DNA of 64,000 nt from Hydrogenophaga sp. (GTDB taxonomy: Bacteria; Pseudomonadota; Gammaproteobacteria; Burkholderiales; Burkholderiaceae_C), in the NCBI GenBank assembly GCA_018993155.1, contig JAGKSX010000065.1:62001-126000 (forward strand). Reading direction: 5' to 3'. The position numbers were made by a program, and so were the translations under genes. Positions within the stretch are counted from its first letter, which is position 1. Each line of letters begins with the position of its first letter. A model generated the notes under the pieces. That model was not told the origin of the DNA and searched no databases. It saw only the letters and a list, made by a program, of their open reading frames with translations. Positions 1,317 to 64,000 of this stretch are shown here, in pieces.

Positions 1317-24352
<23,036 letters not shown>

Positions 24353-24359
24353 AGACGAC

Positions 24360-30973
<6,614 letters not shown>

Positions 30974-30977
<4 letters not shown>

Positions 30978-31876: not shown

Positions 31877-32023
31877 CATGAGGCACCCCCCTGCGCCGCT
31901 GCGCGGCTTCCCCCCTCCGTGGCGCGCCTTCGGCGCTTCGAGGGGGGACGGCATTTCGGGCCGGCGGAGCCGGACCCTCGATGCCTCTGGATGGGGCTGC
32001 TGCTTTCGTCGTGGGGCACTGAA
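31877..32023. repeat. Three-hairpin C/G-rich intergenic repeat (Comamonadaceae-type)
   Basis: The 147-bp gap between the two transporter genes is non-coding and folds into consecutive short hairpins: GCCGC/GCGGC (31895-31907), GCGCC/GGCGC (31924-31936, flanked by outer arms CCCCCCT at 31910-31916 and AGGGGGG at 31941-31947), and CCGGC/GCCGG (31961-31973). It ends with a GGGGCTGCTGCTTTCGTCGTGG-like segment that leads into GGGGCACTG. From memory, elements with this layout are scattered between genes in many Comamonadaceae genomes. There is no U-run after the hairpins, so it is more likely an interspersed or mRNA-structure element than a terminator. Confidence 0.7.
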
Positions 32024-32917: not shown

Positions 32918-32941
32918 TGAAGTTTTCAGTGAGGAAGTGAT

Positions 32942-35900
32942 ATGCAGTCAGATCGGACCAACCCCCCTGAATCGACGCCCGCCCAGCCGGCGCCCGCCGC
33001 CGATCGGCGCAACATGCTGCAGAACGCGCTCGGCGCCATCGAGCGCCTGCAGTCCCGCCTGGATGCGGTCGAGAACGCGAAACACGAGCCGATCGCCATC
33101 GTGGGCATGGCCTGCCGCGTGCCCGGTGGCGCGGAAGACGCCGACAGCTTCTGGAACCTGCTGACCGAGGGCAAGGACGTGGTGGGCGAGGTGCCCGCCG
33201 ACCGCTGGGAGGTGGACGCGTACTACGACCCGGACCCGAGCAAGCAGGGCAAGGCGCGCACCAAGGCCGGCGGCTTCCTGAAAGACATCGACCAGTTCGA
33301 ACCCAGCTTCTTCGGCATGTCGCCGCGCGAGGCCGCGGGCGTGGACCCGCAGCAGCGGCTGCTGCTGGAGGTGGCCTGGGAGGCGATGGAGCATGCTGCG
33401 ATCCCGACCGACCAGCTCGACGGCAGCCTGACCGGCGTGTTCGTCGGCATCACGTCGATGGACTACTCCAACCGCATCGACGTGGCCGACCCGGCCCGCA
33501 GCGACATCTACCTGGCCACCGGCACCGCGCTCAACGCCGCCGCCGGCCGCGTGTCCTTCACCTTCGGCTTCCGCGGCCCCTGCATGGCGATCGACACCGC
33601 CTGCTCGTCCTCGCTGGTGGCGATCCACACCGCCTGCCAGAGCCTGCGCAACGGCGAAAGCAACCTGGTGCTGGCGGGCGGCGTCAACGCCATCCTCTCG
33701 CCCGACCCCTTCGTGCTGATCTCCAAGTGGGGCATGTTGTCGCCCGACGGCCGCTGCAAGACCTTCGATGCCTCGGCCAACGGCTTCGTGCGCGGTGAGG
33801 GCTGCGGCCTGATCGTGCTCGAGCGCCTGTCCGACGCCGTGGCCAACGGCCGCCGCATCCTGGGCGTGATCCCCGGCTCGGCGATCAACCAGGACGGCCG
33901 CTCCAGCGGCCTGACCGTGCCCAACGGCCTGGCCCAGCAGGAAGTGGTGCGCCAGGCGCTGGCCTCGGCCCGCCTCAAACCGACGGACGTGAGCTACGTC
34001 GAGGCCCACGGCACCGGCACCTCGCTGGGTGACCCGATCGAGGTCGAGGCGCTGGCCGCCGTGTACGGCGAAGGCCGGGCCATGCACCAGCCTTTCGAGG
34101 TCGGTTCGGTCAAATCCAACATCGGCCACCTGGAAGCCGCCTCCGGTGTGGCCAGCGTGATCAAGCTGGTGATGGCGCTGCGCCACCAGAAACTGCCCGC
34201 CAGCCTGCACGTGAAGCAGCTCACGCCGTCCATCCCCTGGGACACGCTGCCGGTGCGCGTGAGCACCGCGCTGCACGACTGGCAACCCGTGGGTGGCGCG
34301 CGCCGCATCGCGGGCGCCAGTGCTTTCGGTTTCAGCGGCATGAACGCCCACGTGCTGGTGGCCGAGCCACCCGTAGCCGCCGCGCCGGAGGCCGCACCGG
34401 CCCGGCCCCTGTACGCCATGCCGCTGTCGGCCAAGAACGACGCGGCGCTGCAGGCGCTGGCGCTGCGCTACGCCGACCACCTGGAACAACGCCCGGCCGA
34501 TGCCCTGGCCGACGTGTGCGCCACCGCCGCCATCGGCCGTTCGCACCACCTGCTGCGCACGGTGCTGGTCGCGGCCGACCGCGCCGGCATGCAGGCCCAG
34601 CTGCGCGAACTCGCCAGCACCGGCCAGTCGGCCGTGCAGGGTTCCGTCTCGGCCAGCGGCCGCAACCGCGTGGCCTTCCTCTTCACCGGGCAGGGCGCGC
34701 AGTACGTCGGGATGGGCCGCGAGCTCTACGACGCCGAGCCCGTGTTCAAGGCCACGATCGACCGCTGCGCGGCCGTGCTCGACCCCTTGCTGGGCCGGCC
34801 GTTGCGCGAGGTGATGTTCGAGGAGACCGGTGGCAGCCTGGACCAGACCGGTTTCACCCAACCCGCGCTGTTCGCCATCGAGGTCGCGCTGGCCGCCACC
34901 TGGCGCAGCTGGGGCATCGAGCCCACGGTGGTGATCGGCCACAGCGTGGGCGAATTCGCCGCCGCCGTGGTCGCGGGCGTGTTCAGCCTGGAAGGTGGCG
35001 CGCGCCTGATTGCGGCCCGGGGCCGGCTGATGCAGGCGCTGCCGGCCGGCGGCGCCATGGTGGCGGTGCAGGGCGATGCGGCGCTGGTGCAGCGCGAGAT
35101 CGCGCCGCACGCCGACAAGGTGTCGGTCGCGGCCTTCAACGCGCCGGGCAACCTGGTGATCGCCGGTGCCGGCGCCGAAGTGGCCGCCATCGCGGCGCGC
35201 CTGGCCGAGCAGGGCCTGCGCACGCAGGCGCTGTCGGTGTCGCACGCCTTCCACTCGCCGCTGATGGACCCCATGGTGGAAGAATTCCGCCAGCTCGCCG
35301 CGAGCGTGGCGCATTCGGCGCCCACGCTCACCTGGATCTCCAACCTCGACGGCGCCCCCATGGATTGGGCGAAGTGGGGCAGCCGCATGGCCGACTACTG
35401 GGCCAGCCACGTGCGCGCACCGGTGGCATTCGAAAGCGGCGCGCGCGCGCTGGCCGCCACGCAGTGCGACGTGCACCTCGAAGTCGGGCCCAATCCCACG
35501 CTCATCGGCCTGGGCATGCAGTGCGTGCCCGAAGGCACGGCGACCGACTGGCTGCCCTCGCTCAAGCGCAGCAAGGGCGGCTGGGAACAGATGCTCGACA
35601 GCGTGGCGCGCCTGTATGTGCGTGGCGCGAAACTGAACTGGACGGCGGTGCAGGGCCCGGGCGTGCGCCACAGCCTGGAGCTGCCGCTGTACCCCTTCCA
35701 GCGCCAGGCCTACCTCGTGCCCTTCGCGCCGCGCGCCCGCCGCGTGGCCGGCGACTCGGTGCACGACCTGCTCGGCGAGCGCCTGAACGTGGCCGGCGTG
35801 GCCGCGCAGTTCGAACGCACGGTGGACGCCACCAGCCCGGCCTGGGTGGCGGACCACGTGATCGCGTCCGAGGCCGTGATGCCGCTGACCGCCTACCTCG

Positions 35901-38900
35901 AGGCCGCGCTGGCCGGGGCGCGGCAGGCCGACCCGGCCGTCACCGGGCTCACGGCGGTGGAGATCGGCGAACCCATGCCCCTGCTCGACGGCGAGCAGCG
36001 GCTCATGCAGGTCTCGGTGGACAAGGCCCTGGGCGGTGCGCCCTCGCGCGTGCGGGTGTTCAGCCGCGACGCGAAGCGGCCCGATGCCGAATGGGCCCAG
36101 CACGCCAGCGCCGAGCCGCTGCGTGGCCCGGTCGAGGCGGTGCCGGTGTCGCCGGTGGCCGAGGCGGCGAAGCGATTGACCAACGAGGTCGAGGTCGCGC
36201 CGTTTTACGACAAGGTGCGCAAGCTGGGCGTCGATTTCGGCGCCGGCTTCCGGGGCATGAAGCGCGTCTGGTGCGGTGAAGGCGAAGCCATTGGCGAGAT
36301 CGTGCTGACCGACGCGGTGCAGGCCGATGCCGGCAAGTACCTGATGCACCCGGCGCTGCTCGACGCCTGCTTCCACACCTCGGCGGTCGCCATGGACACG
36401 CTGCCCAGCGCCAACGACGGCCGCTTCTACCTGCCCATCGGCGTGGACCGCTACCTCTGGAACGCCACGCCCACCGCCACGCTGCGCAGCCATGCGCGCG
36501 TGCGCCCGGCGCCGCCGCACAGCGACATGCTGGTGCTCGACGTGCACATCGAGACGCCCGACGGCCAGCCCGTGGCCCTGCTCGAAGGCCTGCGCTGCCG
36601 CCGCGCCAGCCGCGAACTGTTCCGCCAGCGCGTGGACGCGCAGGTGGCCGACTGGCTCTACGAACTGCAATGGAAGCCCGAGGCCCTGGTGGCCGAACCC
36701 GCCACCGCCGAAGGCATCTGGCTGGTGTTCGACGAAGGCCAGGGCCGCGGCCAGCGGCTGGCCGACGAGATCGCCCAGCGTGGCGGCCAGGCCCTGCGTG
36801 TGCTGCCTTCGGGCAGCGCGGCCGGAGCGGGCGCCACGGTGATCGACGAGACCCAGGCCGGCGAGTACGCCCGCCTGGTGGCCAAGGCCGCCGAGCGTGG
36901 CGCGTTGCGTGGCGTGGTGTCGCTGTGGCCGCTGCGCGTGCCGGCGCTGCGCGACGACGACCTGCCCAGCGCGGTGCAGCGCTTCGGCGTGGACGCCGCG
37001 CTGCTGACCCTGCAGGCCCTGGCGCAGGCCGGGCTGCCGTCGGCGCCGCGCCTGTGGATCGCCACCGCCGGCAGCCAGTCGGTGGACGGCACCGAGGAAC
37101 TGCGCATCACCCAGGCCCCGGTGGCCGGCCTGGCGCGGGTGGCCGCGACCGAGCACCCCGAGCTGCGCGTGACCCTGGTGGACCTCGATCCGCAAGCCAC
37201 GCCCAGCGATGCGCGCCTGCTGCTCGACGAAATGCTGTCCGGCAGCGAAGAGAACCAGGTCGCGCTGCGCAAGGGCGTGCGCTATGCCGCCCGCCTGGCG
37301 CGCCAGCCGCGTTCCAGCGCGCCGCACATCGACGACGCGCCGATCCGCCTGAACATCACCGAGCGCGGCACGCTTGAAAACCTGAACCTGGGTGCGATGG
37401 AACGCCGCGCGCCGGGCCGGGGCGAGGTCGAGATCCGGGTGCGCGCCAGCGGCCTGAACTTCCGCGACGTGCTCAGCGCGCTGGGCATGTACCCCGGCGA
37501 GATTCGCCACCTGGGCAGCGATGCCTCGGGTGAGGTCGTGGCTGTGGGCGAGGGCGTGACGCAGTTCAAGGTCGGCGACCGCGTGGTCGCGATGCTCGAA
37601 GGCGCCTTCTCCAGCCACGCGGTCGCGCGCTGGGAATTCGTCGCACCGTTGCCCGATGGCGTGAGCTTCGAGCAGGGTGCCGCCATCCCCACCGCCTACC
37701 TCACGGCCGACATCACGCTCAACCTGCTGGGCAAGATGAGCAAGGGCGACCGCGTGCTGATCCACTCGGGCGCGGGCGGCGTGGGCATGGCCGCCATCGC
37801 GCTGGCCCGCCGCGCGGGCGCCGAGATATTCGCCACCGCCGGCAGCCCCGAGAAGCGCGAGGAACTGCGCCGCCTCGGTGTGCACCATCCGCTGGACTCG
37901 CGCAGCGACTCCTTCGCCGACGAGATCGCCCGCATCACCGAAGGCAAAGGTGTGCGCCTGGTGCTCAACTCGCTCGCCGGCCACCTGCTGGACCGCAGCT
38001 TCGAATGCCTCTCCGACGGCGGCATCTTTCTGGAGATCGGCAAGCGCGGCCTGTGGACGCACGAGCGCGTGGCCGAGCTCAACCGGGGCATCGAGTACCA
38101 CATCGTCGACTGCAACGACAACGCGCGCGACACACCGGAAATCGTGGGCCAGATCTTCACGCGCGTGCTGCAGGAGATCGAGTCCGGCGTGCTGCCGTGG
38201 CTGCCTTGCACCACCTTCCCGTTCGAGAGCGCGCCCGACGCCTTCCGCTACATGGCGCAGGCCAAGCACATCGGCCGCGTGGTGTTCCGCCACCGCGTGG
38301 ACCCGCCCAAGGTGCCGCAGGCGGTGCGCGACGACGCCACCTACCTCGTCACCGGTGGTCTCAAGGGCCTGGGTCTGCTGGCAGGCCAATGGCTGGCAGG
38401 CGAGGGCGCGCGCCACCTGCTGCTGGCCGGTCGCAGCGAACCCGACGCCACCGCGCGCGACGCCATCGCGGCCATGGAAGCCGAGGGCGTGAGCGTGAAG
38501 ACGGTCTCGGCCGATGTGGCCACGGCCGAGGGCATCGCGCGCCTCATGGCGGCCCTGAAGGACATGCCCGCGCTGGGCGGTGTCATCCACGGTGCGGCGG
38601 TGCTCGACGACGGCGTGCTCATCAAGCAGACGCCGGAGCGCTTCGCCACCGTGATGGGGCCGAAGGCCGACGGTGCGTGGCGCCTGAGCGTGGCCTTGGA
38701 GCGCGCCGGCCATCGGCCCGACTTCGTGGTCTTCTACTCCTCGCTGTCGGCCGTGTTCGGCTCGGCGGGGCAGGGCAACTACGTGGCGGCCAACGCTTTT
38801 CTCGATGCGCTGGCGCGCCAGCGCCGCGACGCGGACCGCGCCGCCCTCAGCGTCAACTGGGGCGCGTGGAGCGAGGTGGGCATGGCGGTGCGCGCCGGCA

Positions 38901-39453
38901 CGGTCTCCAAGGCGGGTGCGCAAGGCCTGGCCTCGCTGTCGCCGGCGGAGGGCATGCAGGCGCTGAGCGTTCTGCTGCGCGACAACGCCACCCGCAGCTC
39001 GGTCGCGCCGATCGACTGGGCGCTGCTGGGCCAGCAGATGCCGGCCGGGCAGGCGCCCAGGCTCCTGTCGGACCTGCTCGCGGCCGCGCAGAACCGCGGC
39101 GGCGGCCAGGCCCAGGGCAGCGCCGCGCGCGTGGACTACGCCAGCCTGCCGGCCAAGGAGCGGCGCGAACAGCTGGTGACGCTGGTGCGCCGCGAGCTGG
39201 CCACCGTGCTGGGCCTGGCGGGTTCGCCGCAATCGATCCCGGTGGACCAGACCTTCACCGCGCTGGGCCTGGACTCGCTCACCTCGGTGGAACTGCGCAA
39301 CCGCCTGCAGCAGGCGCTGGGCCGCAGCGTGGCCGCCACGGCCGCCTTCGAATGGCCCTCGGTGGGCGAGATGGCGACCCACCTGAACAGCCTCTATGGC
39401 GATGACGACACCTCGGATGCCTCCGACGCCAACAGCCGGGAGGAACTCACGTT

Positions 39454-39457
<4 letters not shown>
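32942..39457 (+). CDS. Type I PKS module M6: KS-AT-DH-ER-KR-ACP (fully reducing)
   Basis: 2171 residues; strong ribosome-binding site GAGGAAG about six bases before the ATG. The N-terminus has a docking helix (LGAIERLQSRLDAVE). KS about 50-480 (Cys221; SNIGHLEAASG); the usual GTNAH motif reads GMNAH. AT about 575-865, with GHSVGEF and HAFHS (malonyl). DH about 935-1220: the active-site motif reads HVIASEAVMP (His972), so the conserved Gly of HxxxGxxxxP is Ser976; the second motif HPALLDACFH is intact. ER about 1470-1785, with GAGGVGMAA. KR about 1795-1995, with TGGLKGLG, an LDD motif, and Tyr in GQGNYVAAN. ACP about 2075-2150, with GLDSL. The C-terminal tail is acidic (GDDDTSDASD...REELTL), unlike M1-M5, and fits the partner motif of the TubC-type docking domain that begins the next protein. 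Confidence 0.95.
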
Positions 39458-42858
<3,401 letters not shown>

Positions 42859-42862
42859 GGGG

Positions 42863-45800
42863 ATGGGTCCCAGCGAGAAATTTCCCGAGCACGCCATGGC
42901 CATCGTCGGCATGGCGGGGCGCTTCCCGGGCGCGCGCGATCTGGACGCGTTCTGGCGGAACATCCGCGAGGGCGTCGAGTCGCTCGAACCGTTCAGCGAC
43001 GCCGACCTGCACGGCGCGGGCGTGGACCCGGCCCTGAGCGCGCAACCGCAGTATGTGCGCAAGGGCACCGTGCTGGAGGACGCCGACCACTTCGATGCCG
43101 GCTTCTTCGGCATGTCGCCGCGCGAGGCGCAGGTGATCGATCCGCAGCAGCGCATCTTCCTGGAGTGCGCGTGGGAGGCGCTGGAGCACGCGGGTTACGC
43201 GCCCGGTGCCGTCGCGCAGGCCGTCGGCGTCTACGCCGGCGCCAGCATGAACACCTACCTGCTGTCGCAGATCCTGCGCGACCCGGCGCTGGCCGCGTCG
43301 GTGGGCGGCTACCAGCTCATGCTGGGCAACGACAAGGACTTTCTCTGCACGCGCGTGTCCTACAAGCTGGACCTGCACGGGCCCAGCATGACGCTGCAGA
43401 CCGCGTGCTCGACCTCACTGGTGGCGGTGCAGGTGGCCTGCCGCGCGCTGGAGCGGCACGAGTGCGACATCGCGCTGGCCGGCGGCGTGTCGGTGAACTT
43501 CCCGCAGCGCGGCGGCTACCTGTTCCAGGAGGGCATGATCCTCTCGCCCGACGGCCACTGCCGGCCGTTCGACGTGGACGCCAAGGGCACGCGGCCCGGC
43601 GCCGGCGCCGGCATCGTGGTGCTCAAGCGCCTGGCCGATGCGCTGGCCGATGGCGACACCATCCACGCCGTGATCCGCGGCGCGGCCATCAACAACGACG
43701 GCGCTGGCAAGGCCGGCTACACCGCGCCCAGCGTGGACGGCCAGGTGGAGGCCATCGCCACGGCGCAGATGCTGGCGGGCGTGGAACCGCGCAGCATCGG
43801 CTACCTGGAGGCGCACGGCACCGCCACGCCGCTGGGCGACCCGATCGAGATCGCGGCGCTGCGCCAGGTGTTCGAGGCCGGCACGGCCGACCAGGGCTTC
43901 TGCCGCCTGGGCTCGCTCAAGGCCAACCTGGGCCACCTCGACGCCGCTGCCGGCGTGGCGGGTCTGATCAAGACCGTGCTCGCGTTGGAGCACCGCGAGC
44001 TGCCGCCGCTGGTGAACTTCCGCCAGGCCAACCCGCAGCTCGGCCTGGACAGCTCGCCGTTCACCGCCAGCGCCCAGGCCGCGCCCTGGCCAGCGGGGGA
44101 TGCACCGCGCCGCGCGGGCGTGAGTTCCTTCGGCATCGGTGGCACCAACGCCCACGTGGTGCTGGAAGAGGCCCCCGCCATCGAGCGCGTGGAAAACGCC
44201 AGCCAACCGCAGCTGCTGGTGCTGTCCGCGCGCAGCGAAGCCGCGCTCGAAGCCGCCACGCAGCGCCTGCGCGAGCACCTCGCCGGACCTGGCGCGGCGC
44301 AGGACCTGCGCGACGTGGCCTGGACGCTGCAGGAAGGCCGGCGTGCCTTCCCGCACCGCCGCACCCTGGTGGCCGCGACCGCCGCCGACGCGGTGGCCGC
44401 GCTCGGTGCGCCCAGGCGCGCGCCGGTGCACACGGCCCGCCACGAAGGCGGCGAGCGACCCGTGGCCTTCCTGTTCAGCGGGCAGGGCAGCCAGTTCGCC
44501 GGCATGGGCGCCGACCTGTACGCGCAACACGCCGTGTACCGCGACGCGATCGACCGCTGCGCCGAGTTGCTGCGCGAGCCCCTGGGCCGCGACCTGCGCG
44601 ACGTGCTGTTCGCCCCCGCGGGCGACCTCACCATCAACGAAACCCGCTATGCCCAGCCGGCGCTGTTCGTCACCGAGTACGCGCTGGCGACGCTGTGGCA
44701 GTCGTGGGGCGTGCGCCCGGCCGCGATGCTGGGCCACAGCATCGGCGAGTACGTGGCGGCCCACCTGGCCGGCGTGATGTCGCTGGCCGATGCGCTCACC
44801 CTGGTGGCCGCGCGCGGCCAGCTGATGCAGGGCATGGCGCCCGGCGGCATGGCGGCGGTGCAGCTCAGCGCTTCCGAGCTGCAGAAATGGCTGGCCACGC
44901 CGGCCGGCACGCTGGAGATCGCGGCGGTGAACGCGCCTGGCCTGTGCGCCATCTCCGGCCCGCACGAGGCGCTGGAGGCCTGCCTCAAACAACTGAAAGA
45001 GCAGGGCATCGACGCCCAGCCGCTGCACACCTCGCACGCGTTCCATTCCTCGATGATGGAAGGCGTGCTCGCCCCCTTCACCGCGCTGGTCGAGAAGATG
45101 GCCCTGGCCGCCCCCGGTGTTCCCTACGTGTCCAACGTCACTGGCCTGTGGATCACACCGGCCCAGGCCACCTCGCCCGCGTACTACGCCGAGCACCTGC
45201 GCCGCGCCGTGCTGTTCGAGGCCGGCGTGCGCACGCTGGCGGCCGATGCCTCGCTGCACCTGCTCGAGGTCGGCCCCGGCCGCTCGCTGGCCACGCTGGC
45301 CGGCATGGCACTGGGCGTGGAGGGCGTGCGCCGCACCAGCCTGTCCATGGGCAACGCGCGCGATGCGCGCGGCGGCTCGGTGGCGATGCTCGAAGCCGCG
45401 AGCCGCCTCTGGCTCGCGGGCGTGTCGCTCGACTGGGCCGGCCTGCACGGCCCGGCGCGGCCGCACCGCGTGCCGCTGCCCACCTACCCGTTCGAACGCA
45501 AGCGCCACGCGGTGGACCCGGCGGCGCCCAAGGCCGCGCCCGCCAAGGCGGCGGCCCCGGTGGCGGAAGCCGCCGTGCAGCGGCCCGTCGACGACTGGTT
45601 CTGGGAAGCTTCCTGGCAACGCGCGGGCGCCTTGCCCACCGGTCTGTCACCGTCCTCCGAGGCCCAGGGCCGCTGGCTGGTGTTCCGGGGCGACGACGCC
45701 GCGTCACAGGCCCTGGCGACCGCGCTGGCCGGGCAGGGCGCCGAGGTGGTCTCGGTGAGCGCCGGTGACGCGTTCCGGCAGGTCTCGGCCACGCACTACG

Positions 45801-47494
45801 AGGTGGCGCCCGGTTCACAAGCCGACCACGATCAACTGTTCGGCGCCCTGGGCGCGGCACCGCTGGCCTGCGTGCTGCACGCCTGGAACGTGGCGCCCGA
45901 TGCGCCGCTGGTGGCCGATGCCCTGGACGCCGCGCTGCCGCAAGGCCGCCGCCAGGCCTTCGACGCGCTGATCTGCCTGGCGCGCGCGCTGGGTGGCCTC
46001 AAGCGCGCCCAGCCGCTGCCGGTGCTCGTGCTCAGCAGCGACCGCGAGCCGGTGCTGGGCACCGAGTCCGTTCGGCCCGAGCGCGCGCTGCTGCTCGGCC
46101 CGGCCTTGCTCTTGCCGCTGGACGTGCCCGGCGTGCACTGCCGCGTGATCGATCTGGCGGGCAGCGAATGGGCGCCTGAGGCCGCGCCCCGGCTGGCCGC
46201 CTCGCTGCGCGCCGAGGCGGCCCGGCCCGAACCGGACGGCGTGGTGGCCTACCGTGGGCGCCATCGCTGGACGCCCACGCTCGCGCCGCAGCGCCTGGGC
46301 GCCGACACGGGCGCTCTGCCGCTGCGCGACGGCGGTACCTACCTCGTGACGGGCGGTGCTGGTGGCATTGGCCTCACGCTGGGCCAATGGCTGGCCCGCA
46401 CCGCGCGCGCGGCCCGGCTGGTGCTGCTGTCGCGTTCGGCCTGGCCCGACCGGGCGCAGTGGGATGCGTTGCTGGCGGCGAAAGACACGCCCGCGCCGCA
46501 GAAGGAGCGCATCGCCGGCATCCGCGCGATGGAGGCCGCCGGCGCCGAGGTGCTGCTGTGTTCGGCCGATGTGGCCGACGAAGCGCAGATGCAGGCCGTG
46601 GTCGCCATGGCGCGCGCGCGTTTCGGCGCGGTGCACGGCGTGGTGCACGCCGCAGGCGCGCTGGGCACCGGCACCGTGTTCGAGAAAACGGCGCAAAGCA
46701 TCGAGGCCGTGCTGCGGCCCAAGCTCGAAGGCACGCTGGTGCTGGACCGCGTGCTCGCCGGCAGCGGGCTCGACTTCTTCATGATGTGCTCGTCCATCAG
46801 CACGTCCTTCGGTTCGGCCGGCATGGCCGACTACTCGGCCGCCAACGCCTTCCAGGACGCGTTCGCCAAGTCCGGCCTCGCGCGCTCGAGCCAGCGCGTG
46901 CTCGCGGTGGGCTGGGATTCGTGGCGCGACGTCGGCTTCTCGGCCGCGCAGGGGGGCGACAGCTCGCATGCTGCGCTGCGTTATGCCATCCGCCCCCAGG
47001 AGGGCGCTGAAGCTTTCGGGCGCGTGCTCGCCAGCGGCCTGCCGCATGTGTACGTGACGCGCCAGGTCATGCCCGACATGCTGCGCGACGTGGAGGCCTT
47101 GAAGGCCTGGTTGCGCACCTCGGGCGAAGCCACGCAGAGCCAGGCCGCCTTGGCCGAGCCGGGCGCCGCCGCCGCGGTGGACCTGCAGGCGCTCGCCCCG
47201 AGCGAGATCGAAGCGCGCATCGGCGCCATCTGGGCCGACCTGCTGGGCGTGGACGACATCGGGCTCGACGACGACTTTTTCGCGCTGGGCGGCCATTCGC
47301 TGATGGCCACCCGCATCATCGCGCGCATCGAAGAGCAGTTCGGCGCGCGCCTGTCGCTGCGCGACCTGTTCGAAGGCCCCAGCATCCGCCAACTGGCGGC
47401 GAAAGTGGTGGCGCAGGGCGCATCGGGCGCCAGGAGCACAGGCCAGCCCGAGAGCGGCGCTGGGGATGAAGACCGGGAGGAGATCGAGTTTTGA
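42863..47494 (+). CDS. Type I PKS module M8: KS-AT-KR-carrier protein
   Basis: 1543 residues; AGGGG sits immediately before the ATG. KS about 10-440 is of a distinct branch from M1-M6: active Cys182 in T-ACSTS, EGMILSPDGHC, and NNDGAGKAGY, features of KS domains that accept a peptidyl or aminoacyl chain from an NRPS, which matches its place after M7. AT about 530-830, with GHSIGEY and HAFHS (malonyl). KR about 900-1350, with TGGAGGIG near 1161 and the active Tyr in GMADYSAAN. The carrier domain (about 1440-1515) has the PCP-like LGGHSLMA rather than the ACP-like GLDSL. Expected product: glycine extended by two carbons and reduced, i.e. a 4-amino-3-hydroxybutanoate unit. The C-terminus is acidic (GDEDREEIEF) and should dock to the TubC-type domain of M9. 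Confidence 0.95.
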   Translation: MGPSEKFPEHAMAIVGMAGRFPGARDLDAFWRNIREGVESLEPFSDADLHGAGVDPALSAQPQYVRKGTVLEDADHFDAGFFGMSPREAQVIDPQQRIFLECAWEALEHAGYAPGAVAQAVGVYAGASMNTYLLSQILRDPALAASVGGYQLMLGNDKDFLCTRVSYKLDLHGPSMTLQTACSTSLVAVQVACRALERHECDIALAGGVSVNFPQRGGYLFQEGMILSPDGHCRPFDVDAKGTRPGAGAGIVVLKRLADALADGDTIHAVIRGAAINNDGAGKAGYTAPSVDGQVEAIATAQMLAGVEPRSIGYLEAHGTATPLGDPIEIAALRQVFEAGTADQGFCRLGSLKANLGHLDAAAGVAGLIKTVLALEHRELPPLVNFRQANPQLGLDSSPFTASAQAAPWPAGDAPRRAGVSSFGIGGTNAHVVLEEAPAIERVENASQPQLLVLSARSEAALEAATQRLREHLAGPGAAQDLRDVAWTLQEGRRAFPHRRTLVAATAADAVAALGAPRRAPVHTARHEGGERPVAFLFSGQGSQFAGMGADLYAQHAVYRDAIDRCAELLREPLGRDLRDVLFAPAGDLTINETRYAQPALFVTEYALATLWQSWGVRPAAMLGHSIGEYVAAHLAGVMSLADALTLVAARGQLMQGMAPGGMAAVQLSASELQKWLATPAGTLEIAAVNAPGLCAISGPHEALEACLKQLKEQGIDAQPLHTSHAFHSSMMEGVLAPFTALVEKMALAAPGVPYVSNVTGLWITPAQATSPAYYAEHLRRAVLFEAGVRTLAADASLHLLEVGPGRSLATLAGMALGVEGVRRTSLSMGNARDARGGSVAMLEAASRLWLAGVSLDWAGLHGPARPHRVPLPTYPFERKRHAVDPAAPKAAPAKAAAPVAEAAVQRPVDDWFWEASWQRAGALPTGLSPSSEAQGRWLVFRGDDAASQALATALAGQGAEVVSVSAGDAFRQVSATHYEVAPGSQADHDQLFGALGAAPLACVLHAWNVAPDAPLVADALDAALPQGRRQAFDALICLARALGGLKRAQPLPVLVLSSDREPVLGTESVRPERALLLGPALLLPLDVPGVHCRVIDLAGSEWAPEAAPRLAASLRAEAARPEPDGVVAYRGRHRWTPTLAPQRLGADTGALPLRDGGTYLVTGGAGGIGLTLGQWLARTARAARLVLLSRSAWPDRAQWDALLAAKDTPAPQKERIAGIRAMEAAGAEVLLCSADVADEAQMQAVVAMARARFGAVHGVVHAAGALGTGTVFEKTAQSIEAVLRPKLEGTLVLDRVLAGSGLDFFMMCSSISTSFGSAGMADYSAANAFQDAFAKSGLARSSQRVLAVGWDSWRDVGFSAAQGGDSSHAALRYAIRPQEGAEAFGRVLASGLPHVYVTRQVMPDMLRDVEALKAWLRTSGEATQSQAALAEPGAAAAVDLQALAPSEIEARIGAIWADLLGVDDIGLDDDFFALGGHSLMATRIIARIEEQFGARLSLRDLFEGPSIRQLAAKVVAQGASGARSTGQPESGAGDEDREEIEF

Positions 47495-50400
47495 ACGCGC
47501 ACGAGTTGCTGGCACAGCTGCAAGGCCTGGGCGTCGAATTGACGGCGGACGAAGGCCGCCTGCGCGTGAGCGCGGCCCGAGGCCGCCTGGACGAGGACCT
47601 CAAACACGCCATCGGTGAACACAAGACCGAGTTGCTCGCGCTGCTGGCGCAGCGCCGCGCCCCCGGCGCCGGGCCGGTGGCCGGCGTGGCGCACGACGGG
47701 CCGTTGCCGCTGTCGCCGTTCCAGGAGCGGCTGTGGATCCTGCAGCAGCTCGAACCCGACAGCACCACCTACCTGATGGCCACCACCTGGCTCGCGCCCC
47801 TGGGCGTGAGCGGTGAAGCCCTGGTGGCCGCGATCGAGCGCGTGCACGCGCGCCAGCTCGGCCTGCGCATGGTGTTCGTCGAGGAACAGGGCAAGCCCAC
47901 GGGCCGCCGCGTGCAGGTGCCCAAGGTGCGCATGCACGATCTGCGGCACCTGAGCCCGACCGAACAGAAGTGGCAGATCGATGCCGACGTCGAGCGTGTG
48001 GTGCACACGCCGATCGACCTGGCGCACGAGACGCCTGCGCGCTTCGAGGTCTACGCCACCGCGGGCGACACCTGGGTGGTGATGGTCGCGGCGCACCACA
48101 TCGCCGTCGATGCCTGGTCGCTGCACGTGCTGCGCCGCGAGATCGCGGCCGAGCTGGCGGCGCCGCGTGACGACGAAGCCGCCGCGCCCGCGCTGCAGTA
48201 CGCCGACTACGCCGCCTGGCAGCGCCACGCGGTCGATACCTCCGCGGGGCTGGACTGGTGGGAGCGCACGCTGCAAGGCGCGCCCCAGCTCTCGGCCTTT
48301 CCCGCCGACCTGCCGTTGTCCGACGCGCCTCCCAAGGGCGCCTCGGTGGACTTCGAGCTGGACGCCGAGCTGCTCTCGGGCCTGCGCCAGCTGGTGCGGC
48401 GCGAGAACGCCACGGTCTACATGGCGCTGCTGGCGGCCACCGCCGCGCTGCTGCGCGCGCACACGGCGCAGGGCGACCTGCTGCTGGGCAGCCCCATGGG
48501 CGTGCGCGAGCGCGCCGAGTTCGAAAACCTGATCGGTCCCTTCGTGAACCTGCAGGTGGTGCGCCTGCAGGCCGGCGACGACCCGGCTTTCAGCGAGCTG
48601 CTGCGCCGCGCGCGCAACGCGTTGCTGGACGCGCACGAGCACCGCGAGGTGTCTTTCGAAAGCGTGCTGGAGCGGCTGCGCCCGGTGCGCTCATTCCAGC
48701 ACTCGCCGCTGTTCCAGGTGGCGGTGGTGCAGCACAACGTCAACGCCCAGAGCCAGGGCTCGACCAGCGAGAGCGGCCTGGCCATCACCGGTGGTGGTGC
48801 GCTGCACGAGCTGACCTGGTTCGCGCGCGAGGAGGGCGGCCGGCTGGTCTGCAGCCTGGAGTACCGCAGCGACCTCTATTCGAGCGGCATGATGGAGCGC
48901 CTCGCTTCGCAGCTGCAGGCCCTGCTGCGCGGCGCGGTGGCGAACCACGAAGCACCGATCAGCCAGCTGCCCCTGCTCACGCCGGCCGCGCGCGAACAGC
49001 TCGTGCACGGCTTCAACGAGACCACGCAGGCGCTGGACACCACGCTCTTCGCCCAGCGCCTGGAGCGGCAGGCCGCCCAGTCGCCCGCGCGCACCGCGGC
49101 GGGCTTCGACGGCCAGACCCTGGACTACGCCACGCTGAACCGCCGCGCCAACCAGCTCGCGCACCACCTGCAGGGCCTGGGCGTGCGGCCCGGGGTGCGC
49201 GTGGGCATCTGCATGGACCGCTCGCTGGACCTGCTGATCGCGCTGCTGGCGGTGCACAAGTCCGGTGGGGCCTACGTGCCGCTGGACCCCGACTTTCCCG
49301 CCGAGCGCCTGGCCTACATGCTGGAAGACAGCGGCGCGCAGGTGCTGGTCACGACGGGCGAGGCGGCCGACGCCGTCAGCGCGCCCGAAGGCGTGCGCTG
49401 CGTGGACCCGATCGCTGATGCGGCCGCGATCGCCGCGCACAGCGGCGACAACCCGGCGCCCTCGGCTGGCGCCGGCGACGCGGCCTATGTGATCTACACC
49501 TCCGGTTCCACCGGCCGCCCCAAGGGCGTGGTGGTGCCGCAGGGTGCGCTGGCCAACTTCCTGGCGTCGATGGCGCTGCAGCCCGGCCTGGGCGCCGACG
49601 ACGTGCTCGCGGCCGTGACCACGGTGTCGTTCGACATCGCCGGTCTGGAGCTGTACCTGCCCCTGACCGTGGGCGCGCGGGTCGAACTGGCCTCGCGCGA
49701 GACCGTCACCGACGGCACGGCGCTGGCGGACTGGCTCGCCGCGTGCGGGGCCACGGTGCTGCAGGCCACGCCGGCCACCTGGCGCCTGCTGCTCGAAACC
49801 GACTGGACCCCGGCGCGCCCCTTGCGCGCCTTCTGCGGCGGCGAACCACTGCCGCGTGACCTGGCCGACCGCCTTTTGGAGCGCGTGGCCCAGCTGTGGA
49901 ACCTCTATGGCCCGACCGAGACCACCATCTGGTCCACCGTGCAGCGCGTGGAGCCCTCACCGGCGCCCATCCGCATCGGCCGGCCGATCGCGAACACGCA
50001 GGTCTACGTGGTCGACGCGCGCGGCGAGCCCGTGCCCATCGGCGTGCCGGGCGAGCTGTGCATCGGTGGCGCCGGCGTGGCCACGGGTTACCACGAGCGC
50101 GCAGAGCTCACGGCCGAGCGCTTCGTGGCCGACCGCTTCGCCCGCGAGCCCGGCGCGCGCCTGTACCGCACCGGCGACCTCGCGCGCTGGGACGCGCAAG
50201 GCCATCTGCACCACCTGGGCCGGCTCGACCACCAGGTGAAGGTGCGTGGCTACCGCATCGAACTCGGCGAGATCGAGACCGCGCTGTCCGCGCACCCGGC
50301 CGTGCGCCAGGCGGTGGTGATGGGCCGCGAGGCCGGCCCGGCCGATGTGCGGCTGGTGGCCTACCTGGCGTTCCAGCCGGGCGAAGACCTGACCGCCAGC

Positions 50401-50802
50401 GACGTGCGCCGCTTCCTGCGCAAGCAGTTGCCGGACTACATGATCCCGTCGGTGGTGGCGGCGGTGGACGCGATCCCGCTCACGCCCAACGGCAAGGTCG
50501 ACCGCGCCGCGCTGCCCGACCCGTTCCGCCACGCGGTGCAGGCCGCGCGCGATTTCGTCGCACCCGAGCCGGGCCACGAACAGGCCATGGCCGAGATCTG
50601 GCGCGACATCCTGCACGTCGATCGCGTGGGCGCCGAGGACAACTTCTTCGAACTCGGCGGCCATTCCCTGCTGTCGCTGCGCGTGGCGCAGGCGGTGGAA
50701 AAGCGGTTGGGGTGGCGCATGGATGCGCGTACATTGTTCTTCCAGAACCTGCGTCAGGTGGTGGCCACCGCGGCCGCCGAAAAGGGAAGCCTTCAGGAAT
50801 GA
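47491..50802 (+). CDS. NRPS module M9: TubC-type docking-C-A(Gly-like)-PCP, no thioesterase
   Basis: 1103 residues, starting at TTG 47491 (TTGA overlap with the M8 stop, GGGAGGAG ribosome-binding site upstream). This start is supported because the docking domain begins at once (ELLAQLQGLGVEL, residues 1-52). C domain about 70-480: the catalytic motif reads HHIAVDA (His202-His203), with Ala replacing the final Gly of HHxxxDG. A domain about 520-1000, with YTSGSTGRPKG near 668; pocket residues read by hand D-I-L-Q-C-G-L-I-W-K, glycine-like. PCP about 1020-1085, with ELGGHSLLSL. The protein ends a few residues later (AAAEKGSLQE), with no TE, reductase or terminal C domain, although it is the last assembly-line protein on this strand. 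Chain release must therefore use other proteins; the next two genes are candidates. Confidence 0.94.
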   Translation: MNAHELLAQLQGLGVELTADEGRLRVSAARGRLDEDLKHAIGEHKTELLALLAQRRAPGAGPVAGVAHDGPLPLSPFQERLWILQQLEPDSTTYLMATTWLAPLGVSGEALVAAIERVHARQLGLRMVFVEEQGKPTGRRVQVPKVRMHDLRHLSPTEQKWQIDADVERVVHTPIDLAHETPARFEVYATAGDTWVVMVAAHHIAVDAWSLHVLRREIAAELAAPRDDEAAAPALQYADYAAWQRHAVDTSAGLDWWERTLQGAPQLSAFPADLPLSDAPPKGASVDFELDAELLSGLRQLVRRENATVYMALLAATAALLRAHTAQGDLLLGSPMGVRERAEFENLIGPFVNLQVVRLQAGDDPAFSELLRRARNALLDAHEHREVSFESVLERLRPVRSFQHSPLFQVAVVQHNVNAQSQGSTSESGLAITGGGALHELTWFAREEGGRLVCSLEYRSDLYSSGMMERLASQLQALLRGAVANHEAPISQLPLLTPAAREQLVHGFNETTQALDTTLFAQRLERQAAQSPARTAAGFDGQTLDYATLNRRANQLAHHLQGLGVRPGVRVGICMDRSLDLLIALLAVHKSGGAYVPLDPDFPAERLAYMLEDSGAQVLVTTGEAADAVSAPEGVRCVDPIADAAAIAAHSGDNPAPSAGAGDAAYVIYTSGSTGRPKGVVVPQGALANFLASMALQPGLGADDVLAAVTTVSFDIAGLELYLPLTVGARVELASRETVTDGTALADWLAACGATVLQATPATWRLLLETDWTPARPLRAFCGGEPLPRDLADRLLERVAQLWNLYGPTETTIWSTVQRVEPSPAPIRIGRPIANTQVYVVDARGEPVPIGVPGELCIGGAGVATGYHERAELTAERFVADRFAREPGARLYRTGDLARWDAQGHLHHLGRLDHQVKVRGYRIELGEIETALSAHPAVRQAVVMGREAGPADVRLVAYLAFQPGEDLTASDVRRFLRKQLPDYMIPSVVAAVDAIPLTPNGKVDRAALPDPFRHAVQAARDFVAPEPGHEQAMAEIWRDILHVDRVGAEDNFFELGGHSLLSLRVAQAVEKRLGWRMDARTLFFQNLRQVVATAAAEKGSLQE

Positions 50803-51569
50803 CGCCACTGTTTTTTGGTGAGAGCTCGCGCCGCCTGTTCGGCGTCTACACGCCGGCGCACGCGCGCGGCGGGAAGGCGCGCGGCGTCGTGATCTGCCCG
50901 CCCTGGGGCACGGAATACCTGCGCGCGCACCGCAGCGTCTGCCAGCTCGGCCGGCTGCTGGCCGAGTCCGGCGTGCACGTGCTGCGTTTCGACTATTACG
51001 GCACCGGCGATTCCGCCGGGGACACGAACGAGGGCGATCTGAAAGGCTGGCAGGCCGACGTGGAAACCGCCATCGACGAACTCAAGGACACCGCCGGCCT
51101 GCAGCGCGTGGGCCTGGTGGGCCTGCGCCTGGGTGGCCTGCTCGCGGCCCGCGTGGCGCCGGTGCGGCGCAAGGACGTGGATGCCGTGGTGCTGTGGGAC
51201 CCGGTGGTGCAGGGGGCCGACCACCTGGCCGGCCTGCAGCGCCTGGACGCGGCCGTGGCCCGCGAGCGCGCCTTGAAGGTGAACGCCGGGGAACTGCTGG
51301 GCTTTCCCATGTCCGTGGCCCTGGCCACCGAGCTGCAGGCCATCGACCTGCTGCAGCACGTGCCCGGCCTGCCGGCGCGCACGCTCATGGTGGTCTCGGA
51401 AAACGTGCTGGGGCAGGACGCGGTGCGCACCGCGCTCGAAACGGCGCGGCCCGGCACGCAGCCCTTCGAGCACATCCAGAGCCAACCCGCCTGGCTGGAG
51501 GACCAGCATTCCGGCGCGGGCGCCGTGCCCGTCAAGCTGCTGCAGCGCGTCGTGGAGTGGCTGGCGTGA
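50799..51569 (+). CDS. Alpha/beta-hydrolase-fold protein without a Ser/Cys nucleophile (pair member A1)
   Basis: 256 residues, start ATGA-overlapping the M9 stop. The fold is recognisable by VVICPPWGTEY (30-40), LRFDYYGTGDS (62-72) and a nucleophile-elbow segment LVGLRLGGLLAA, in which Arg110 occupies the place of the catalytic Ser (GxSxG becomes GLRLG). A canonical hydrolase triad is thus missing. The layout resembles, from memory, the 'exosortase A system-associated hydrolase 2' proteins, which also have a GLR-type elbow and travel with a 'hydrolase 1'; that comparison would need a profile search. It is followed at once by a Cys-type partner, and a homologue (53333-54139) precedes another Cys-type partner on the other strand. 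Role in chain release, acyl transfer or cyclisation is inferred from position only. Confidence 0.88.
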   Translation: MTPLFFGESSRRLFGVYTPAHARGGKARGVVICPPWGTEYLRAHRSVCQLGRLLAESGVHVLRFDYYGTGDSAGDTNEGDLKGWQADVETAIDELKDTAGLQRVGLVGLRLGGLLAARVAPVRRKDVDAVVLWDPVVQGADHLAGLQRLDAAVARERALKVNAGELLGFPMSVALATELQAIDLLQHVPGLPARTLMVVSENVLGQDAVRTALETARPGTQPFEHIQSQPAWLEDQHSGAGAVPVKLLQRVVEWLA

Positions 51570-52459
51570 TGGAACGCGTCGTCGAACAGGCCTTGCTGCT
51601 GGGCCCCCGCAAATCCATGGTCGGGGTGATCACGCCCGCGTCCACGCGCTCGGCCGTGCCCGATGCGCCTTTTGTCGTGATCCTCAACGCCGGCATCATC
51701 CACCGCGTCGGCCCCAACCGCATGCACGTGCTGCTGGCCCGCGCGCTGGCGGCCGCGGGTTTCGGTGTGCTGCGGGTCGACCTCTCCGGCCTGGGCGACA
51801 GCGAGGCGCGCGACGACGCGCTGCCGCCGCTGGACGCCACCCTGGCCGACATCCGCGAGATCCTGGACATGCTGCAGGCCACGCGCCAGGTGCAGCGCGT
51901 GGTGCTGGTGGGCCTGTGCTCGGGTGCCGACCATTCCATCATCTACGCCGGCACCGACGAGCGCGTGGTGGGCGTGGCGCTGATGGACCCGTCCATTCCG
52001 CGCACCCTGGGCTACTACGTGCACCACTACGGCCACCGCATCCTGGGCTTGCGCGCCTGGCTCAACCTGATGCTGGGCCGCCACCCGATCTGGCGCGCGC
52101 TGCGGCACCGCCTGAGTAGCAAGGTGCCCGGCGGGTCGCCGGCCGAAGAGGTGGAGGCCCGGGGGCCGTCGCTGGAAGACCCGAAAGTCAGGGCCTTTTT
52201 GCAGAACGCCTATGGCCGCGCGCTGGGCAGCGGCGTTCAGATGCTGGCCGTGCTCACCTCGGACCGGCAGCGCCAGCACAACTACCGCCGCCAGCTGCTG
52301 GACGCCTTCCCCCTGCTGACCTTCGGCGACCAGCTGTGGCTGGAGTACTTCAAGGAATGCGACCACACCTTCGCGTCGTCGGCCAACCGCGCCCGCCTGA
52401 TCGGCCTGGTGGAGACGTGGATGAAGGCGACCAACTTCCGCTCGCCGCCGAAAGGCTGA
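51569..52459 (+). CDS. Alpha/beta-hydrolase-fold protein with Cys nucleophile (pair member B1)
   Basis: 296 residues, start overlapping the previous stop as TGATG. Features: GPNRMHVLLARALAA (48-62), VDLSGLGDSEA (70-80), nucleophile elbow VGLCSGA with Cys117 where Ser is usual, and a late His in CDHTFAS (His266). A mid-protein insert (about 150-215) could form a lid. This resembles 'exosortase A system-associated hydrolase 1'-type proteins from memory. Cys nucleophiles are known in some NRPS thioesterases that form strained rings (obafluorin, sulfazecin), so transfer or cyclisation rather than plain hydrolysis is possible. It is the last plus-strand gene; only nine bases separate its stop from that of the convergent minus-strand gene. 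Confidence 0.88.
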   Translation: MERVVEQALLLGPRKSMVGVITPASTRSAVPDAPFVVILNAGIIHRVGPNRMHVLLARALAAAGFGVLRVDLSGLGDSEARDDALPPLDATLADIREILDMLQATRQVQRVVLVGLCSGADHSIIYAGTDERVVGVALMDPSIPRTLGYYVHHYGHRILGLRAWLNLMLGRHPIWRALRHRLSSKVPGGSPAEEVEARGPSLEDPKVRAFLQNAYGRALGSGVQMLAVLTSDRQRQHNYRRQLLDAFPLLTFGDQLWLEYFKECDHTFASSANRARLIGLVETWMKATNFRSPPKG

Positions 52460-52468
52460 GCGAACGGT

Positions 52469-53329
52469 TCAGCGGTTCGAAGGCAGCACGCGGCTTGTCA
52501 GCCAGTCGTCGGTCATGGCCAGGAAGGCCTGCTGCGCGGTGCGTGTCGTGATCAGGTGGTCCGACACTTCCAGGTAGTTGAAGCCCACCTTCTCGTGGAA
52601 CGGGAACTGGCCGAACATGCCCTTGAACTGGCCGGCGTGGTTGAACCACTCGGGCTCTCCGCCGCAGTAGACAAACAGCAGCTCCACGCCACCGTCGCTC
52701 AGCGTCTGGATGCGCTGGCCGAAGACCTCTTTCGGCGGCACGAGGGAGACTTCCACCGCGCGCCCGCTGCCGTTGCCGCCATCGCCGTCGGTGGCTCTGG
52801 CGCGGAACAGGCCGAGCAGCCGGTCGGCCGCCTTGCGCACCGTGCCCGCCAGGCCCGCGCGGCGCAGCTTGTAGAAGAAGGTGCGGGTGCGTGAGGCGGC
52901 CGTGGGGTAGGCGTAGAGGTCCCACAGCAGGATGGCGCGCAGGCGCGGGTCTTCCAGCGCCACCAAGTGCGCCACCTCGGCGCCCGAGCAGAAACCCACC
53001 ATCATGAAGCGGGCGCAGCCAAAGCGCGCCTGGGCCGCGTCCATCACCGAACGCGTGTCGGCCACCCATTGCTCGACCACCGGCAGGGTGCTGGCGGTGC
53101 GGCGGCTGTCGCCCAGGCCGCTCATGTCGAAACGCACGGAAGGAATGCCCTGGGCCGCGAGGCGGCGCGCGAGGTGCACGTTCATGCGGTGCGGCCCGCT
53201 GCGCGGGATCACGCCGGAGTTGGTCAACAGCGCCACGACGGGCGGCGCGCCGTTGAAGCCCGTGTCGGCGGGCGTGAAGGTGGCGACGAGGTGGTTTTCG
53301 ATCCCCAGCGTCAGGGTGTGTTCGGCCAT
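52469..53329 (-). CDS. Alpha/beta-hydrolase-fold protein with Cys nucleophile (pair member B2)
   Basis: 286 residues on the minus strand, ATG complementary to 53327-53329, three bases after the stop of the gene at 53333-54139. It is a homologue of the 51569-52459 product: GPHRMNVHLARRLAA (45-59), RFDMSGLGDS (66-75), elbow VGFCSGAEVA with Cys114 in place of Ser, and a C-terminal His in VSDHLITT (His258). A basic and Gly-rich stretch in the middle (about 150-190) differs from its paralogue. It is the terminal gene of the minus-strand operon. Its position downstream of a megasynthase lacking a TE domain mirrors that of its paralogue on the plus strand. An acyltransferase/cyclase/thioesterase role is inferred. 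Confidence 0.88.
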   Translation of the reverse strand: MAEHTLTLGIENHLVATFTPADTGFNGAPPVVALLTNSGVIPRSGPHRMNVHLARRLAAQGIPSVRFDMSGLGDSRRTASTLPVVEQWVADTRSVMDAAQARFGCARFMMVGFCSGAEVAHLVALEDPRLRAILLWDLYAYPTAASRTRTFFYKLRRAGLAGTVRKAADRLLGLFRARATDGDGGNGSGRAVEVSLVPPKEVFGQRIQTLSDGGVELLFVYCGGEPEWFNHAGQFKGMFGQFPFHEKVGFNYLEVSDHLITTRTAQQAFLAMTDDWLTSRVLPSNR

Positions 53330-53332
53330 CGG

Positions 53333-54139
53333 TCAGTCGAGGGTGGAGAGAACGGCGCGCAGCAGGTCCGGAGGGACGATCGCCGTGCCCATCGCCTGAC
53401 TGGACATCCAGTCGGTGATCTGCCCGATATTGTGCAGGCGGAACTCGGGGTGGTTCTCCAGGTCGGCGAAATGCCCGCGCTGTTCATCGGGCACCGCGCA
53501 GAGCACGCGCACACCGCGCCGCAGCGCGGGCGCCACCTGCACGTCGCGCAGGTTCTGCAGTTCGTCGGCCAGGGACTGGCCCAGGTGAAAGCCGAGCAGG
53601 TCGCCCGGCAGACCGGGGGCGACGCCCTTGTCGCTGGCGAGCAGCCGGTCCCAGGGCACGCGGAACATGCGCACCAGCTCTCGCTGGTGGCCTTCCATGA
53701 GCTGGCGCACGTAGGTGGGACCGTCGAGCACCGGCTCCCACAGCACGAGCTGCGTGGGCGGCTTGCGCGCGCGCAGGGCCGCGCGCAGCGCGAGGGTGGC
53801 GCCCAGGCCCATGCCGAACCAGATCACGGGCGCGCCATCGCCGTCCTGCAGTTGCTCATGGGCGGCCAGGGTGTCGTCCAGCCAGCCGCTGAGCGATTGG
53901 TCTTCCTCGTTGCCGGGGGAGTCGCCAGTGCCGTGGTAGTCGAAACGAAGGGATTCACAGCGCTCGCGCGCGAGCCGCTCGCCCACGACGCGGTAGATGG
54001 CCGCGGTGCGCACGGCCTCCTGGCCGAGCGGGCGGCACAGCAGGAAGCGCGCGCGCGGTTCGCCACCGCTGCTGGCGGTCTGGTACACGCCCACCATTTC
54101 CCGCCCGGGGCGGCCAAAACGTCTGATCGCAAGGTCCAT
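53333..54139 (-). CDS. Alpha/beta-hydrolase-fold protein without a Ser/Cys nucleophile (pair member A2)
   Basis: 268 residues on the minus strand, 25 bases after the stop of the megasynthase. Related in layout to the 50799-51569 product: FLLCRPLGQEA (32-42), LRFDYHGTGDSPG (64-76), then the elbow WFGMGLGATLA, where Gly111 sits at the nucleophile position (GxSxG becomes GMGLG). There is no replacement Ser or Cys at the elbow, so ordinary serine-hydrolase chemistry is unlikely. It immediately precedes a Cys-type partner, in the same A-then-B order as the plus-strand pair. It may be a scaffold or regulatory subunit for that partner, or use a different mechanism; neither is shown by the sequence. 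Confidence 0.85.
   Translation of the reverse strand: MDLAIRRFGRPGREMVGVYQTASSGGEPRARFLLCRPLGQEAVRTAAIYRVVGERLARERCESLRFDYHGTGDSPGNEEDQSLSGWLDDTLAAHEQLQDGDGAPVIWFGMGLGATLALRAALRARKPPTQLVLWEPVLDGPTYVRQLMEGHQRELVRMFRVPWDRLLASDKGVAPGLPGDLLGFHLGQSLADELQNLRDVQVAPALRRGVRVLCAVPDEQRGHFADLENHPEFRLHNIGQITDWMSSQAMGTAIVPPDLLRAVLSTLD

Positions 54140-54164: not shown

Positions 54165-64000
<9,836 letters not shown>

Follow-up and report, generated by a model that had tools for sequence, protein, structure and literature searches.

Paired alpha/beta-hydrolases at the ends of thioesterase-less assembly lines in Hydrogenophaga and other bacteria: a candidate two-subunit release enzyme

SyrC and CmaE are Cys alpha/beta-hydrolases. 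Like CysB, each works as a separate protein that ferries aminoacyl groups from one carrier protein to another, and the portions of the reports drawn on here (PMC8748450, PMC7966384) give them neither a pseudo-hydrolase partner nor a terminal place in a line without a thioesterase (TE). Cys-type TEs, among them the domains of SulM and ObiF, close strained rings; these two domains have a Cys nucleophile, an acyl-enzyme and an alpha/beta-hydrolase fold, and are part of the synthase itself (PMC11298585, in the part drawn on). Exosortase A hydrolases 1 and 2 (TIGR03100 and TIGR03101) are hypothetical equivalogs in NCBIfam, and the sole paper in which we found TIGR03100 presents it, in the part drawn on, as a predicted hydrolase within a polysaccharide cluster (PMC3584217). 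Here we analyze 64,000 nucleotides of a Hydrogenophaga sp. contig (hereafter, the window), in which two convergent gene pairs at 50799-54139, A1-B1 on the plus strand and A2-B2 on the minus strand, close two assembly lines of the nonribosomal peptide synthetase (NRPS) and polyketide synthase (PKS) type. We propose that each pair is probably one two-subunit enzyme, which offloads the finished chain from the last carrier protein of its own line and replaces a cis TE.

The four open reading frames (ORFs) exist at the positions and in the order given by a first-pass annotation of the window, with A before B in both pairs (Table 1). Its claim that the A members lack an elbow nucleophile and the B members carry a Cys is borne out: the elbows read Arg110 in A1 (GLRLG), Gly111 in A2 (GMGLG), Cys117 in B1 (GLCSG) and Cys114 in B2. 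The B1 number is counted from the ATG at 51569; from the GTG at 51566, which is also possible, the residue is Cys118. The motifs it listed are present, LRFDYxGTGDS being common to A1 and A2, and GPxRM and SGLGDS to B1 and B2. Each pair also stands at the end of a TE-less line, as annotated; Pfam scans found no thioesterase or reductase at the end of either line. The plus operon runs from a stand-alone TE through PKS modules M1-M6, with two EamA genes, to a condensation-adenylation-peptidyl carrier protein module (C-A-PCP), a ketosynthase-acyltransferase-ketoreductase-PCP module (KS-AT-KR-PCP), a second C-A-PCP, A1 and B1. The minus line begins 2.85 kb outside the window on the same contig, in the order AMP-ligase domain, acyl carrier protein (ACP), KS-AT-ACP, aminotransferase, C-A-PCP, C, degenerate A, PCP, A2, B2.

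This terminal position is widespread. When eight A sequences were used to scan 84,980 species genomes, at least 564 relatives came back, of which the best 80, ranked by likeness to A1, were kept (L065-L144). We defined a pair as A then B on the same strand within 400 bases, in loci unscreened for duplicates. Among 81 such pairs (79 from these loci and 2 from the window), 58 have a same-strand synthase whose end either overlaps A by at most 120 bases or lies no more than 400 bases upstream of it. Within the last 700 residues of these synthases (one is shorter), profile scans at E<=0.001 found a PP-binding domain in 58/58, PF00975 in 0/58 and no reductase family. The other 23 pairs include five Variovorax loci with a phosphopantetheinyl transferase (PPTase) gene between synthase and A (L105, L124, L135-L137). 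In four more of the 23 (L101, L102, L111 and L131), A is fused to the C-terminus of the synthase right behind the ACP or PCP, which is the usual thioesterase position, and B is the next gene. The 58 pairs come from Alpha-, Beta- and Gammaproteobacteria, Gemmatimonadetes, Calditrichia, Nitrospinaceae, Chloroflexi, Planctomycetota, Corallococcus and other Myxococcota, Aquimarina and Oligoflexus; they are not independent events, because close relatives are included (five Corallococcus, nine alphaproteobacteria L067-L075). The first-pass annotation knew of no described PKS/NRPS system with this layout. In genomes the layout proves widespread, and we found no paper showing the pair at NRPS/PKS ends, in a search that missed most subscription papers and all bioRxiv preprints, so that a prior description is possible.

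Adjacent A-B order in other PKS/NRPS clusters had been suggested as a check, and the A-B order itself recurs across a wider set of 107 pairs (79 in L065-L144, 26 in L039-L064, 2 in the window). The A elbow is Arg in 103 and Gly in 4; the B elbow is Cys in all 106 that could be read, one being uncovered, and the B His is present in 105, two being uncovered. Fourteen of the 107 are A-B fusion proteins (13 in L039-L064 and 1 in L065-L144). The leftovers of this survey are three A genes without an adjoining B and two B fragments (L061, L117), and none shows B before A. The observation goes beyond chance: 107 pairs repeat the adjacency and the elbow residues, and a Hydrogenophaga metagenome-assembled genome (MAG) repeats the layout of two lines with both pairs. 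On its contig L065 there are counterparts of the stand-alone TE, of M1-M5 and M7-M9, of one EamA gene, of the minus line and of both pairs. Synthase, TE and EamA matches have identities of about 43-77%, and the picture for the M6 region is less certain, the best match there reaching 40%. Conservation of RFD[YF]xGTGD in L065-L144 is a search artefact, as this pattern was used in the scan: a 28-row A alignment was too diverse for scanning, and an 8-row alignment with one pattern worked. A first genome-wide scan with B1 alone gave no relatives. Later loci (L145-L176), which lie outside the 107-pair counts, again have GxC in B, as read with a pattern that itself requires Cys.

Pairing also holds in a second sample of 299 Pseudomonadota genomes, the window's included, with up to 8 candidates scored per genome. 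There are 21 B genes, spread over 19 genomes, and 20 A genes, spread over 18; 20/20 A genes have an adjacent B, and 20/21 B genes an adjacent A (E<=1e-30), the 21st (G056) having a weaker A just upstream. Twelve of these 21 pairs are fused, 4 have the exosortase kind of elbow (GxCD), 3 stand directly behind a synthase and 2 are other. Distance matrices of A and B correlate with r 0.82 over 103 pairs, a value reached by 0/2000 permutations (highest 0.11). We take this as joint descent rather than contact, since shared species history adds to r.

The annotation had guessed at the exosortase-associated hydrolases, and profile searches do rank these models first, all below cut-off. The top NCBIfam model is TIGR03101 for A1 (114.3 bits) and A2 (76.1 bits; curated cut-off 202.75) and TIGR03100 for B1 (90.4 bits) and B2 (56.6 bits; cut-off 168.45). 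That TIGR03100 and TIGR03101 hydrolases are neighbours is part of the family description, and the window pairs and their relatives are neighbours likewise. Pfam matches are to general hydrolase models; PF12146 is above its cut-off in all four proteins, and PF00975 has no match in any of the four (E<=0.1). All four proteins are members of the alpha/beta-hydrolase superfamily, by PF12146 for all, the models of A1 and B1, and the fold comparison of B1; for A1 the fold is supported by Pfam, by searching PDB sequences with the A alignment, and by the model. Among PDB entries, B1 matches general esterases and lipases as well as some thioesterases, including those of acyl-ACP and PKS type, and these matches settle no function.

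The alignments place a candidate active site in B. Over 66 B rows, Cys117 and His266 are invariant, and the B1 model puts Cys117 at the elbow. Strand beta-6 of that model ends at position 140, which is Asn in 17/17 fused or exosortase-type members. Among 103 members, 60 have Asp140 without an acid in the beta-7 column, 23 Asn140 with it, 8 Asp140 with it (including B2), 7 Glu140 without it and 5 Asn140 without it. We read this pattern as a probable move of the catalytic acid. The Asp of SulM and ObiF lies after beta-7, whereas the B1-type Asp follows beta-6, which the part of PMC11298585 drawn on gives as the usual NRPS position. In the 66-row A alignment, Arg110 is found in 63 rows, Asp134 in 54 (Glu in 9) and Trp232 in 61, with no conserved His after residue 134; by its position, we guess that Trp232 occupies the place of the catalytic His. 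A displaced Ser in the A members had been raised as a way out. Structure prediction, run on A1 (mean predicted local distance difference test score, pLDDT, 95.4), places Arg110 at the elbow, between strand 104-109 and helix 111-122, and that candidate was dropped for A1, as no displaced Ser is seen in it. Loop 40-48 of B1, with near-invariant residues, is among the least certain parts of its model (block mean pLDDT 60); our guess is that it may need a partner to order.

The proposal rests on sequence and predicted structures. Architecture, the Cys and His of B, the missing nucleophile of A, pairing, TE-less ends, A-behind-carrier and A-B fusions and joint descent are read in the sequences; that the two proteins form a complex, that A docks the carrier, and the nature of the acyl-enzyme, acceptor and product are what we infer. 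As a pseudo-hydrolase, A would hold or dock the carrier protein and make the active complex complete. The elbow Cys of B, the residue type expected of aminoacyl carriers such as SyrC and CmaE, would attack the thioester (in B1 with the proposed triad), form an acyl-enzyme and then hand the chain over to an acceptor nucleophile. We consider it more likely that the acyl group goes to an amine, a hydroxyl or a ring-closing group than that it is simply hydrolysed. The chemistry is plausible by analogy with Cys-type ring-closing thioesterases (PMC11298585) and aminoacyl shuttles (PMC8748450, PMC7966384), as far as the portions of these reports go.

Several points weigh against such a release function. 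The 80 loci are the best by likeness to A1, and the NRPS setting is therefore enriched among them; in the 299-genome sample a synthase directly precedes only 3/21 pairs (two of them the window's, the third in G472), so most pairs lie outside the NRPS setting. Some A genes have no adjoining B: L113 (B is elsewhere in the genome), L119 (a 4.2 kb contig) and L129 (the locus ends). Five of the 103 B members have neither acid position. Arg is not essential to the A family, because several fused A have Gly at the elbow (L150, L151, L157, L159, L161, L165; the elbow is unread in L156, L163 and L176), and A keeps a near-invariant Cys33 away from the elbow, where strand 28-33 ends (62/66 A rows). L051, L043 and L045, the nearest relatives of A2-B2 besides L065, lie beside polysaccharide genes with no synthase in the flanking DNA examined. 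Finally, the genomes of 9/9 plus-type relatives searched have a stand-alone TE (PF00975 in a 276-330 aa frame), the window has one too, and this enzyme could share the release job.

Among other explanations, the first, an unlikely one, is a chain shuttle between lines: the pair would collect the acyl chain at the terminal PCP of one line and deliver it to a carrier protein or KS of another, as the single proteins SyrC and CmaE do; A2-B2 could then feed the plus line. Shuttle precedents exist in SyrC, CmaE and CysB (PMC8748450, PMC7966384, portions drawn on), and the plus line would offer an entry point: no loading domain is seen, because the first KS, in the PKS at 1313-5830 (+), is an ordinary one at the very N-terminus with an intact Cys (DSACSSS). 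A decarboxylating KS loading module was considered for this line and dropped, the Cys being intact. In L143 (10747-18357), the fusion runs the other way from those with A behind the PCP: B forms the N-terminal part of the following synthase, which has an AMP-ligase domain, KS, AT and aminotransferase. However, each line of the window has its own pair, a Variovorax plasmid carries a minus-type line and pair followed by polysaccharide genes and no second line, and a same-strand gene with A, C or KS domains lies downstream in only 2/58 pairs (L077, L084; at least 5 kb of flank in 47), L143 being a third.

That the pair is instead a dispensable editing unit, clearing stalled carrier proteins like a type II thioesterase, we consider improbable. 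Stand-alone genes near a line and a hydrolase fold would suit such a role, but a cis release domain is found in 0/58 lines, four loci have A fused where a TE would be, and a type II-like TE is already present in the window cluster. The annotation had named a TE elsewhere in the cluster as grounds for doubt, and one does lie at 537-1316. It scores 170 bits for PF00975, the next best of the genome's 11 matches reaching 35.5, but it looks like an editing (type II) enzyme, and 8/24 line-bearing genomes have no PF00975 match (E<=1e-10; the search covered the genomes of 24 of the 80 loci, many of them draft or MAG records in which absence is uncertain). The remaining 16 have matches; a positive control, Corallococcus G313 (L100), has 18, many within long frames.

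The two pairs differ in history. In the joined tree, A1-B1 groups with L065, L066, L076, L079 and the alphaproteobacteria L067-L075, and L065-L075 share the order C-A, KS-AT, C-A, A, B of the plus line. A2-B2 groups with its counterpart in L065, then L051, L043 and L045, within a wider group of Variovorax minus-type lines, L040 and further polysaccharide-locus pairs. Because the window pairs fall in different clades, local duplication is rejected; the annotation's two duplicated families hold only in an old sense, with identities of 30-31% for A1 and A2 and 24-26% for B1 and B2. Its suggestion that one pair serves each line fits A1-B1 well, since lines of one type run through its clade, but fits A2-B2 only partly, as the nearest relatives besides L065 are in polysaccharide loci. 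A trial MAFFT alignment with an A-B fusion placed all 70 separate B rows on the A half, and the joint model was dropped.

Other settings of the family bear on what the pairs act on. Exosortase A hydrolases resemble the window pairs in forming an adjacent pair (fused in L054), with GLRxG in hydrolase 2 and GLCDG or GLCDA in hydrolase 1 (L054, L056, L058, L059). The two scanned, L054 and L058, exceed the cut-offs for TIGR03100, TIGR03101 and TIGR03098 and lie beside an exosortase-type acyl-CoA ligase. In contrast, the window proteins score below cut-off, follow NRPS/PKS lines and have Asp rather than Asn at position 140 after beta-6, B2 with an additional beta-7-column acid. Cys33 of A is absent from four exosortase-type rows. 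Amino acid:carrier protein ligase operons contain an A-B fusion: of 23 fused loci with flanks, 13 lie near such a ligase and an acyl-CoA dehydrogenase, 12 of them also with an ACP. These operons differ in placing one amino acid on one carrier protein, with no assembly line, and the part of PMC9437257 that describes the ligase does not mention the fusion. A carrier-bound acyl group is thus the likely common factor, given the ligases beside both fusions and exosortase pairs. A wider claim, which we regard as evenly balanced, would make A-B a carrier-protein acyltransferase of two subunits, one of them a pseudo-hydrolase, that serves bacteria generally. Exosortase polysaccharide loci, ligase operons and NRPS/PKS lines would be three of its settings at the least, and it would form its own release class beside thioesterase, reductase and condensation-type release, the catalytic acid having shifted from beta-7 to beta-6 on most of the NRPS branch.

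A further explanation would have the pair ligate the carrier-bound chain onto a polysaccharide or its lipid-linked precursor at the cell surface, in NRPS lines and exosortase loci alike. The window's own contig carries an XrtA/PEP-CTERM polysaccharide locus at 44.0-58.6 kb (L005:1-14559), with deacetylase, FemAB protein, glycosyltransferase, amidotransferase and O-glycosylation ligase above cut-offs; it lies 3.4-18 kb upstream of the window start at 62.0 kb, though some 54-69 kb from the pairs at 112.8-116.1 kb, and the genome has no TIGR03100 or TIGR03098 match above cut-off. TIGR03006, sought in the window's own genome and those of 26 of the 80 loci, is present in 10/27, within about 25 kb of the pair in five (G309, G316, G603, G604, G321); this is no fair count, because L122 and L139 (G603, G604) were chosen knowing the gene was present and L120 (G316) was also chosen after that scan. 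These signs, and the Variovorax order of NRPS, NRPS, PPTase, A, B and then capsule polysaccharide export genes, speak for surface ligation by the NRPS-type pairs, but we hold it to be the least probable explanation: at least two polysaccharide-type genes occur in only 6 loci of L065-L144 (flanks examined), the Hydrogenophaga MAG has its XrtA gene on a different contig from the pairs, and 17/27 genomes have no TIGR03006.

Release is often unknown for lines without a thioesterase, and a recognisable end pair would assign this step in clusters of many phyla. A release enzyme of this kind would also give exosortase hydrolases 1 and 2 a function and provide a trans-acting offloading enzyme for pathway engineering. 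The recurrence of the pair in many bacterial phyla points to a little-studied way of product release.

Table 1. Positions in the window of the two pairs and the genes of their lines, with the ligase-type fused loci of other genomes
Feature	Position or loci	Strand	Remarks
A1, pseudo alpha/beta-hydrolase	50799..51569	+	Arg110 at nucleophile elbow
B1, alpha/beta-hydrolase	51569..52459	+	proposed triad Cys117-Asp140-His266
B2, alpha/beta-hydrolase	52469..53329	-	Cys114 in GFCSG, conserved His
A2, pseudo alpha/beta-hydrolase	53333..54139	-	Gly111 at elbow
Last plus-line synthase gene (M9)	47491..50802	+	C-A-PCP, without thioesterase, 4-base overlap with A1
Minus-line synthase, visible part	54165..63989	-	AT-ACP-aminotransferase-C-A-PCP-C-degenerate A-PCP, without thioesterase
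Stand-alone thioesterase, type II-like	537..1316	+	PF00975, GHSMG Ser90
Remainder of plus line	1313..47494	+	six PKS modules, two EamA transporter genes, C-A-PCP, KS-AT-KR-PCP
Ligase-type fused loci (13)	L042, L047, L050, L061-L064, L166, L167, L170, L174-L176

The last module of the minus line contains a degenerate adenylation domain at approximately 54450-55820 (-), and by Pfam the ORF has one AMP-binding, two C and three PCP domains. Variovorax lines show a C-A-C pattern similar to this end. The A-B fusions L166:8956-12267 and L167:7372-10698 lie in ORFs about 1,100 aa long, in which roughly 500 additional residues precede the fusion. The plus operon has its two EamA-type transporter genes at 30974-32917 (+), and EamA-like genes are also found in L075, L112, L118 and the L065 contig.

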